The notes under the pieces are model-generated. The model worked only from the letters and a program-made list of their open reading frames with translations, was not told where the DNA came from and did no database searches. From contig NZ_KE387185.1 of NCBI RefSeq assembly GCF_000430645.1, positions 469,780 through 533,779 of the forward strand: a stretch of 64,000 nt of DNA, read 5' to 3'. A program made the position numbers and the translations under genes. Below, in pieces: positions 42,207-44,434 of the stretch (positions within the stretch are counted from its first letter, which is position 1; each line of letters starts with the position of its first letter). Source of the stretch: Aquimarina latercula DSM 2041 (GTDB taxonomy: Bacteria > Bacteroidota > Bacteroidia > Flavobacteriales > Flavobacteriaceae).

Positions 42207-42872
42207 GTGGCTATTGTTGTAGTCATATTATGGCAATTACCATATTTTGGGTGGTTTCAATATCCATTTAGATTATTGGGGACTTGGTTCCACGAAATGG
42301 GTCACGGTCTTATGGCGGTATTACTAGGAGGTAATTTTGAGCATTTAGAAATTTATGAGAATGGAGGTGGTGTTGCTTACTACCATTTAGGAGGAAGCTA
42401 TGTTTCTCCTTTTATAGGTAATGCCTTAGTAGCGGCAGGAGGATTATTAGGACCAGCTGTAATTGGAGCTTTGTTAATAATGTCTGCAAAATCGCACAGA
42501 AATTCTATGATAGCACTTAGAGTATTAATAGGAGTTATGATACTTTCGTTGTTATTATGGATTAGATCTTTTTGGGGAGTATCTGTAATGAGTGGTTTTG
42601 CAATCTTTTTATTTGTTATTACCTTATTTAAGAGTAGAAAACTCGAAGTAGTTGTTATCTTGTTTTTAGGTTTACAATCTGTATTAAGTACATATCTTCA
42701 GCTGGATTATTTATTTACAAAACAGTTCGAAAGAGATGGAGCAATTCAGATATCAGATACGCAGGCTATTGCAGAAAATACCTTTGGTACTTATTGGATG
42801 TGGGCTATTCTTATTATACTTATGAGCGCTTATTTACTTTGGAAAAGTTTTCGATTTTACTTTAAAAAATAA
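42207..42872 (+). CDS. M50 family membrane metallopeptidase
   Basis: 221 residues from GTG. The zinc motif is TWFHEMGHGLMAVLLG (HExxH), with five to six membrane segments and the second metal region around the LGPAVIGALL stretch. There is no site-2 PDZ domain, so it is a short M50B-like protein. The start is uncertain: in-frame sequence extends back to 42153 without ATG, GTG or TTG, and an ATT at 42165 would add ITSISKRFDYTIII, which completes the first membrane helix as in relatives I recall. Confidence 0.75.
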   Translation: MAIVVVILWQLPYFGWFQYPFRLLGTWFHEMGHGLMAVLLGGNFEHLEIYENGGGVAYYHLGGSYVSPFIGNALVAAGGLLGPAVIGALLIMSAKSHRNSMIALRVLIGVMILSLLLWIRSFWGVSVMSGFAIFLFVITLFKSRKLEVVVILFLGLQSVLSTYLQLDYLFTKQFERDGAIQISDTQAIAENTFGTYWMWAILIILMSAYLLWKSFRFYFKK

Positions 42873-42898
42873 CAACCTAAATCCAGTGATAAAGGTTG
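42865..42898 (-). terminator. Hairpin terminator after cytolysin-domain gene
   Basis: On the minus strand CAACCT/AGGTTG with a 14-base loop followed by TTATTTTTT, located about 50 bases past the stop of the 110-residue gene at 42950. Confidence 0.55.
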
Positions 42899-42949
42899 CT
42901 ATATGGTTATAGAAGTGTAAGATGATTTTTTTCAAAATCGTTAATAAAA

Positions 42950-43282
42950 CTAACAAGAGATTTTTGCGTATTTAGGATCTAAGGTAGTACCATACACCTT
43001 ATAGCATTCTGTTACGGGCTTATCGTAGCTCTTTGTAAAAATAGTGGACCATCCAAATGCCCAGTTTTCTTCCACTTTTAAGTAAATAGAAGTAGCACCT
43101 TCTGGGATAGTTTCGGATTTATTCACTCCTAATGATATATCTCCAGAGTGTTTACTAAACTCCTTGCCATTTAATGTATAAGATAACGTAAAACGGGCTA
43201 CGTATCCACCTTCACACCTTATCAGAATAGAGCCTGTTTGTTTTGCATCTAAATGAGTTAATACTGCTTCTTTTAATTCCAT
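42950..43282 (-). CDS. Stand-alone cholesterol-dependent-cytolysin domain-4-like protein
   Basis: 110 residues, no signal peptide. The whole length aligns by eye with the C-terminal beta-sandwich (domain 4) of thiol-activated cytolysins: GGYVARFTLSYTLNGKEFSKHSG near the start, VNKSETIPEGATSIYLKVEENWAFGWSTIF in place of the undecapeptide region, DKPVTECYKVYGTTLDPKY at the end. The Thr-Leu pair that recognises cholesterol (T100-L101 in YGTTLDP) is kept. The undecapeptide Cys and Trp pattern (ECTGLAWEWWR) is only partly kept. There is no pore-forming domain. Probably a small sterol-, lipid- or glycan-binding module. Confidence 0.75.
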   Translation of the reverse strand: MELKEAVLTHLDAKQTGSILIRCEGGYVARFTLSYTLNGKEFSKHSGDISLGVNKSETIPEGATSIYLKVEENWAFGWSTIFTKSYDKPVTECYKVYGTTLDPKYAKISC

Positions 43283-43511
43283 GATTTATGTTATTAATCC
43301 TCTACTCTGTTTAAAATTAGGCTTTTCGAATCCGCCGATGTAATCAAAAAAGTAGCTACCCTTTAATGTGTTTTTTAATTACATTCAAAAGTATTGTAAC
43401 TGGTTGTTTTTCAATAGCGTATAAGTATCTGTTTTTATATTTAAGTATTTACTGCAATTATGCCGTAGAATTACCTGTTTGTAAAAAATTAATGGTAGGT
43501 TCAACGAAATA

Positions 43512-43536
43512 AACACGTGGTAAATACGTGTTTTTT
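43512..43536 (+). terminator. Orphan hairpin with T6 run
   Basis: AACACGT/ACGTGTT around a GGTAAAT loop, with six Ts on the plus strand. No plus-strand gene ends here, since the region from 43283 to 43636 (354 bases) is otherwise without a gene. It may end a small RNA or attenuate transcription into the next gene. I see nothing else in this stretch. Confidence 0.45.
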
Positions 43537-43636: not shown

Positions 43637-44434
43637 ATGGAACAGGCAATCCAACCAAAACAATTAATGACTTTAGAACAAGCAGAGAAAATTGAGAGAT
43701 GGCAACAGGAAGAAGTATTGTTGTTAGCCAGACACTTTCAACGCCTAAATGAAACAAAAGGTAGGCCCTTTAGTGGATACTATACTAGAGCTAATTACTT
43801 TCAGATGGATGCTGTAGATGTTGCTATATTAAATAGCCTTAAAGATGATGGAAAAACTATTCAAAGAATTAAAACTCATATGGCATTAGAAGTAGAAGAC
43901 AAAAAGAATTTCACTTTTGTGCCAATTATAGAAGTAGACCTAGAAGATACAATCAACAATTTGTTTTTTACTTTGATTCCAAAATATAAGGAACCGGTAG
44001 AGCCAATTCAGAATGGAACAATAGGAGATCTAGATACTGGAGGAGTATTGGTGCCAGGGATTTTTAAAGAGATGATTTTAACCAATTGGAACAATCTTGA
44101 AGATAATTTGATAGATGATCTTTTTGTAGCGGTTGATACAAAAACAAGACAAAGAGAGCGAGTAAATTATTATTTAATTGATAATATTGATATAATCGAT
44201 CTTATTAATGATTCTTTATTGGGAGAAATTGAGGAGTTTATTCTCTATCCCGGAGTTGATATGAATAAGTTTCATAAAAGAGATATGATTTCGTTTACTC
44301 CAGTCATAGGAATCACTCCTGTGGGTGAAGTTATCACTGAAATTTTATCAAGGCATGCGTTATTAGAATTTACTGATGAAGAGATTTTTATAGAATATTC
44401 TAGTCCTTGTCCACCCACGTGTCCCGAAGCATAA
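43637..44434 (+). CDS. Hypothetical protein
   Basis: 265 residues, soluble, acidic. It begins with a charged helix (MEQAIQPKQLMTLEQAEKIERWQQEEVLLLARHFQRLNET) and ends in a short Cys-Pro tail (PCPPTCPEA). The middle is beta-rich (FVPIIEVDLEDTINNLFFTLIPKY, DLDTGGVLVPGIFKEMIL). I do not recognise a family. It is the first gene of a run with a 7-TM protein, a histidine kinase and a response regulator, spaced 20 bases from the next ATG, so a link to that signalling pathway is possible. Confidence 0.65.
   Translation: MEQAIQPKQLMTLEQAEKIERWQQEEVLLLARHFQRLNETKGRPFSGYYTRANYFQMDAVDVAILNSLKDDGKTIQRIKTHMALEVEDKKNFTFVPIIEVDLEDTINNLFFTLIPKYKEPVEPIQNGTIGDLDTGGVLVPGIFKEMILTNWNNLEDNLIDDLFVAVDTKTRQRERVNYYLIDNIDIIDLINDSLLGEIEEFILYPGVDMNKFHKRDMISFTPVIGITPVGEVITEILSRHALLEFTDEEIFIEYSSPCPPTCPEA

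Follow-up and report, generated by a model that had tools for sequence, protein, structure and literature searches.

A stand-alone homologue of cytolysin domain 4 encoded in Aquimarina

A gene of Aquimarina latercula DSM 2041 encodes a 110-aa protein that, judged by profile searches, is homologous to domain 4 (D4) of the cholesterol-dependent cytolysins (CDCs). Domain 4 is the sterol-binding end of the CDC toxin, a beta-sandwich, and we infer the same fold for the 110-aa protein. The gene (42950..43282, minus strand; ATG start, 110 codons and a stop) lies in a window of 64,000 nucleotides, i.e. the whole stretch of DNA that was analysed, and its annotation draws on the ORF, on dN/dS and on the match to a CDC domain 4 profile. 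Our leading interpretation, to which we give about an even chance, is that this D4-like protein acts as a soluble, non-lytic recognition module of the D4 type. Because domains 1–3 are absent, pore formation by the protein alone is not expected.

A conserved gene at a fixed position

The ORF is a genuine gene, since 4 of the 51 other genomes searched from the genus (5 of 52 with the window's own) carry orthologues of 95–99% identity. Its position is identical in all five carrier genomes, convergent to a gene for an M50B peptidase (42207-42872, assigned by Pfam) and divergent from an ORF for a 265-aa protein of no assigned family (43637-44434); it is absent from all 39 genomes searched in the order's other families. 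The sequence-only reading had seen no toxin neighbours, which is correct beside the gene, where these two neighbours are found, but does not extend to the genome at large, as all five carriers encode a CDC-like protein with a PF01289 match (see below).

The 265-aa neighbour is present in 27 of the 52 genus genomes, and at 22 of those 27 loci the D4-like gene is missing. Across 10 of the 22 empty loci, the flanking matches are separated by 152–321 bases in nine cases and by 724 in one (G010), the spacing with the gene in place being 765–777 bases; no gene remnant was recognised by eye at any of the 10. In a tree of three neighbour proteins, built from 15 of the 27 genomes, the carriers fall into two groups, one of which is weakly placed (support 0.39) next to a group of non-carriers; the topology is consistent with a single gain and one or more losses. 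The 265-aa neighbour itself shares only 52–55% identity with its counterparts in three genomes with which most of the other compared genes share 63–100%, and its tree departs from those of its neighbours as if alleles had been swapped.

The D4-like gene is under strong purifying selection. Comparison with the four relatives gives dN/dS values of 0.025, 0.014, 0.011 and 0.018, at the low end for the 12 compared genes of the segment, with the proviso that dS spans 0.16–2.14 and is saturated in two comparisons, the ratios being rough where dS exceeds 1. A dN/dS of about 0.02 implies that the protein is needed in nearly unchanged form. Recent transfer as the source of the high identity is unsupported, the dS of the gene resembling that of its neighbours.

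Homology to domain 4 of the cytolysins

Tested singly, the protein falls short of a database assignment. Against the Pfam model PF17440 (Thiol_cytolys_C), it scores 16.3 bits with a cut-off of 23, the alignment spanning model positions 2–102 of 102, and the four orthologues reach 16.5–18.0 bits, also below the cut-off; a PDB search with the 110-aa sequence alone gave listeriolysin O at E 0.29. This PF17440-like match is the only one that Pfam returns for the ORF, so that domains 1–3 (PF01289), which define a whole CDC, are missing; of two further marks of a whole CDC, the conserved undecapeptide is lacking and the Thr-Leu pair is present. Used at E 0.01, the PF17440 model misses the gene in its own genome and matches 1 of 397 genomes, namely G104, where the match sits in an ORF that by eye looks glycosyltransferase-like. 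A control E. coli also gave one match, below the cut-off, and these two hits make the chance level of the model visible.

The same model is of little help across the family described below: every D4-like member that was scanned and matched stays sub-threshold at 13.7–22.5 bits (Leptolyngbya 20.7, G516 22.5, G266 13.7), while the proteins of G615, G1116 and G1152 (loci L013, L018 and L019) and two ORFs of G675 gave no match in a scan that covered the members other than G1195.

It is through the family profile only that the link to D4 becomes significant, the single-sequence Pfam test being sub-threshold. With a profile of seven members, no CDC included, CDCs were the best 18 of the 25 PDB matches listed (E 4.3e-9 to 0.026), several of these 18 being separate entries of the same toxins. 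An independent profile of the six non-Aquimarina members likewise placed CDCs as the best 11 of the 13 PDB matches listed (best E 3e-7). This six-member profile scores the window's ORF at 88 bits (E 1.6e-26); the next best of 837 window frames of at least 30 codons reached 5.5 bits, and the best among 2001 controls (2000 shuffles plus the reversed protein) 11.3 bits. The proposal of a stand-alone CDC domain 4 homologue is thus borne out by the family profiles; the HMM comparison with Thiol_cytolys_C that had been suggested for it fails with the protein alone (16.3 vs 23 bits) and succeeds via the family profile (best E 4.3e-9). Membership of Thiol_cytolys_C accordingly holds as homology by profile search, below the curated cut-off.

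That the likeness to D4 is accidental, or that the gene is the decaying remnant of a toxin, deserves hardly any credence. The sub-threshold single-sequence scores (16.3 vs 23 bits, PDB E 0.29) would suit such a view, but chance is ruled out by both family profiles together with the scrambled controls, and decay by the dN/dS of 0.011–0.025.

Aligned to listeriolysin O, the protein shows which parts of the D4 tip have been kept. The Thr-Leu pair, retained within YGTTLDP as the sequence-only reading had noted, aligns to the loop 1 pair of the toxin; the GTTL itself (codons G98–L101, 42980..42991, minus strand) corresponds to the CDC Thr-Leu loop. The undecapeptide position is occupied by ENWAFGWSTIF (codons E72–F82, 43037..43069, minus strand), and the undecapeptide is therefore degenerate, again as that reading had it. 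The stretch from the first strand to Pro60 is shorter in the 110-aa protein than in listeriolysin O; in CDCs, this stretch carries other tip loops. Two cysteines flank the GTTL loop (codons C93–C110, 42953..43006, minus strand), as the alignment of D4-like domains reveals. An in-frame stop codon lies 1–8 codons 5′ of the ATG in all five orthologues, which makes a signal peptide impossible in the five Aquimarina proteins and upholds the absence of a secretion signal noted earlier.

A sparse family of D4-like domains

Relatives of the D4-like protein are rare and are either short proteins or modules within MACPF, papain-like peptidase and FG-GAP proteins. Searches by tblastn in plasmids led to a 126-aa single-domain protein of Leptolyngbya (E 0.009), whose N-terminus is signal-like by eye; Enterococcus plasmid matches of the same search were left out of the family. 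Of 394 other Bacteroidota genomes, three held convincing relatives by profile search, as did two of 394 others from the class, after three of seven rows (G751, G513, G652) and four of seven rows (G513, G907, G1103, G904), respectively, had been dropped as weak. Further convincing relatives turned up in 2 of 97 others from G516's class, one of them a complete CDC, and in 1 of 12 others from the family of G1116; the class of G615 yielded none in 194 other genomes. A phage or viral origin was considered and rejected, with no phage match and no confirmed relative among viral contigs.

Stand-alone D4-like domains are encoded in Aquimarina, Leptolyngbya, G516 and, as two neighbouring ORFs, G675. By eye, the short ORF of G516 and the two of G675 lack a signal peptide, and the G675 pair are the least certain members of the family (E 4.8e-4 for one). 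These latter ORFs, L033:1127-1447 and 1507-1830, are adjacent, and both have GTTL without the cysteine pair. The remaining members are larger. G1195 encodes a 410-aa protein with two D4-like domains, and in G615 the domain forms the C-terminus of a 560-aa protein that looks secreted by eye. G1116 carries it C-terminal to AbfB and papain-like peptidase (peptidase C1) domains, G1152 within an FG-GAP protein and G266 as the C-terminal domain of a MACPF protein (L012:1492-3036; MACPF 78.7 bits). The G266 protein, seen in context at L027, is a single bacterial protein in which the two halves of the MACPF/CDC superfamily are joined. An 819-aa ORF of like orientation lies two genes from it (L027:12207-14666) and starts with a stretch that is D4-like by eye.

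The tip was compared across 11 D4-like domains, with one row representing all five Aquimarina sequences. GT is followed by TL in six of the 11 and by IF or LF in the other five; the pattern GT[TIL][LF], picked after viewing the domains, fits all of them. A cysteine stands on each side of this loop in 9 of the 11, the two of G675 being the exceptions, and the exact ten-letter core of the CDC undecapeptide is found in none. The true CDC of G595 (locus L032) possesses this core and GTTL and lacks the cysteine pair.

Promoter and leader

Sequence patterns suggest that the D4-like gene is driven by its own promoter and that its transcript has a conserved leader. A promoter-like site, TTG-N18-TACTTTTG, was located by pattern match at 43386..43414 on the minus strand, 103 nt before the start, and the corresponding TTG-N18-TAnnTTTG pattern, which follows the Bacteroidetes-type promoter consensus, occurs in four of the five orthologues, ending 103–108 nt before the start. 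Between this site and the start codon, the leader contains a strongly conserved element (43299..43338, minus strand) resembling Rfam DUF805b, a cis-regulatory RNA, at 19.8 bits with a threshold of 35.6. The element recurs in all five orthologue leaders at identical position and strand with 19.8–25.4 bits, so that none of the five attains the gathering threshold of 35.6 bits; its E-value is 0.0064 for the window alone and 0.0017–0.13 in the joint search. No copies beside other genes were found in 1.4 Mb of sequence, overlapping copies included.

Two further elements flank the gene. A terminator-like inverted repeat, spotted by eye, lies where the M50B and D4-like genes converge (42871..42900), and a conserved element, CGTGGTAAATACGTGTTTTT, is located 5′ of the divergent 265-aa gene (43516..43535, plus strand), with one copy in the window and none in 100 shuffles. 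The latter is also kept in several genomes without the D4-like gene.

A CDC-like protein in the same genomes

Each of the five carrier genomes encodes a protein of about 516 aa with a PF01289 match (278–287 bits), and three of them encode a second such protein (124–131 bits). In the window's genome, the gene for the former lies at L069:7775-9325, about 273 kb from the D4-like gene on the same contig. Its product is lipoprotein-like by eye, and residues 46–403 match CDC domains 1–3. The last 113 residues have no Pfam family match; compared with the D4 family, they gave a probability of 47% or 14%, with cysteines roughly in register, which is suggestive only of the possibility that this C-terminal part is a divergent D4. 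Among the five genomes, the C-terminal parts come in two types, 58–60% alike between types and 96% within (for the pair compared), and these types are discordant with the relatedness of the D4-like genes.

In all five carriers, the CDC-like gene has lip458/dnaE on one side and a thioredoxin gene on the other; a TPR gene accompanies it between lip458 and the thioredoxin gene. In the closed genome G006, which has no D4-like gene, the CDC-like gene is absent both at this site, where a 136-aa ORF fills the place between lip458/dnaE and thioredoxin, and in 400 kb of its 6.01 Mb. G020, also without the D4-like gene, has none beside dnaE or in 440 kb of 5.98 Mb and carries two other CDC-like genes that are about 23–28% identical. 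Two adjacent CDC-like genes in G020 (L111:16377-19436), of the kind of a 659-aa protein (about 28% identity), are possibly a two-component CDCL pair. In a third lacking genome, G014, the 88 kb examined held neither dnaE nor the CDC-like gene and were uninformative. The co-occurrence—five of five carriers vs none of two partly covered lacking genomes—is suggestive only. A MACPF partner was sought as well, with no matches in the window's genome and one sub-threshold match across the four other carriers.

Comparison with known systems

The closest described family is PF17440 itself. With it, the D4-like protein shares a near-full model match, the G-T-Thr-Leu tip and the retrieval of CDC domain 4 by the family profile; it differs in scoring below the curated cut-off, in lacking the undecapeptide and domains 1–3 and in carrying loop-flanking cysteines. 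The G595 CDC, encoded at L032:1483-2910, is similar in having PF17440 (113 bits) and GTTL; it differs in combining PF01289 and PF17440 in one protein, in keeping the undecapeptide core intact and in lacking the cysteine pair. This complete CDC, from the class of G516, has no obvious signal peptide by eye.

A functional parallel is the isolated D4 of perfringolysin O, which, according to PMC5653841, is non-lytic and serves as a cholesterol probe. It resembles our protein in being a domain 4 without the pore-forming part; it is a laboratory construct, however, whereas the D4-like gene is natural and strongly conserved. The same source gives Thr490 and Leu491 as fully conserved in 28 CDCs and states that in perfringolysin O Thr and Leu alone are not the whole cholesterol-binding motif (PMC5653841).

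The CDCL proteins of Bacteroidota are related by phylum and as CDC-type proteins from Gram-negatives (PMC11169675). The two long CDCL components examined there have binding domains unlike CDC domain 4 in sequence and structure, and the short component has no such region (PMC11169675); the Aquimarina D4-like protein, by contrast, keeps D4 and is without the pore part. Nor does the locus look like a two-component CDCL system, i.e. an adjacent pair of PF01289 genes, the neighbours being the M50B and 265-aa genes. A literature search of titles and abstract openings found no publication on a natural stand-alone D4 protein.

Ligand and mode of action

By analogy with isolated perfringolysin D4 and cholesterol, the tip loops of the D4-like protein may dock it to a lipid or to some other component of a surface, and the cysteine pair could fix the tip loop or switch it by redox. 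The ligand might be a foreign sterol encountered on hosts or food of eukaryotic origin, or else some other lipid or a glycan, and the site of action would be the cytosol or, if the protein is exported by a non-classical route, the outside. A recognition role fits the presence of D4-like modules on MACPF, AbfB plus peptidase C1 and FG-GAP proteins.

A ligand of the bacterium's own making is a different matter. The SQHop_cyclase_C model, which covers both squalene-hopene and oxidosqualene cyclases, has no match in any of the five carrier genomes (2 of 14 control genomes were positive), which makes a home-made hopanoid or sterol ligand unlikely. The ligand is thus probably not a self-made sterol or hopanoid, and the earlier suggestion of a hopanoid or sterol sensor, as regards the bacterium's own lipid, is not supported. 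Since five of the 11 domains have IF or LF instead, Thr-Leu by itself is no pointer to sterol either.

The main rival to a self-sufficient recognition module is that the D4-like protein acts in trans with the CDC-like protein, as an accessory binder, a regulator or a protection of the producer membrane. We regard this as unlikely, if worth serious attention. It would explain why a CDC-like protein is encoded in every carrier, and G006 and G020, both lacking the D4-like gene, fit it too, the first by the lack of the CDC-like gene at the lip458/dnaE–thioredoxin site and the second by having no copy beside dnaE or in the 440 kb covered. Yet these are two informative genomes with partial cover (400 kb of 6.01 Mb and 440 kb of 5.98 Mb), one of which, G020, holds two other CDC-like genes. 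In addition, some 273 kb separate the two genes in the window's genome, the C-terminal types do not track the relatedness of the D4-like gene and the lipoprotein-like protein already has its own C-terminal domain.

Two other readings dispense with lipid. The protein may bind a glycan or a protein on cell surfaces, since CDC D4 can bind glycans, relatives are joined to AbfB and FG-GAP domains and the residue pair in the tip loop is variable; GT[TIL][LF] in all 11 domains, albeit a post hoc pattern, is nevertheless the hydrophobic tip expected of a membrane-facing loop, and we hold this option to be quite unlikely. A cytosolic protein that has lost membrane binding and retains the fold for protein–protein contact or redox use would agree with the missing export signal in all five orthologues, the cysteine pair and the near-invariant sequence. 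We rate it as very unlikely, because the conserved GTTL tip is unexpected in a pure cytosolic scaffold and several relatives look secreted by eye. More speculatively, and with quite low expectations, one may picture D4 as a recognition family in its own right, its tip loop clamped by cysteines, whose members occur singly, in tandem or attached to MACPF proteins and peptidases. In Aquimarina, the free domain would then work in trans with a CDC-like surface protein whose gene lies about 273 kb off, the pore-forming system being divided between separate genes.

Outlook

As the D4-like protein is small and, by its sequence, soluble, its ligand is directly testable. A natural, near-invariant stand-alone D4 in bacteria without a detected sterol or hopanoid cyclase, together with the D4 on a MACPF protein, bears on the origin of the domain and on what it recognised before, or apart from, cholesterol.
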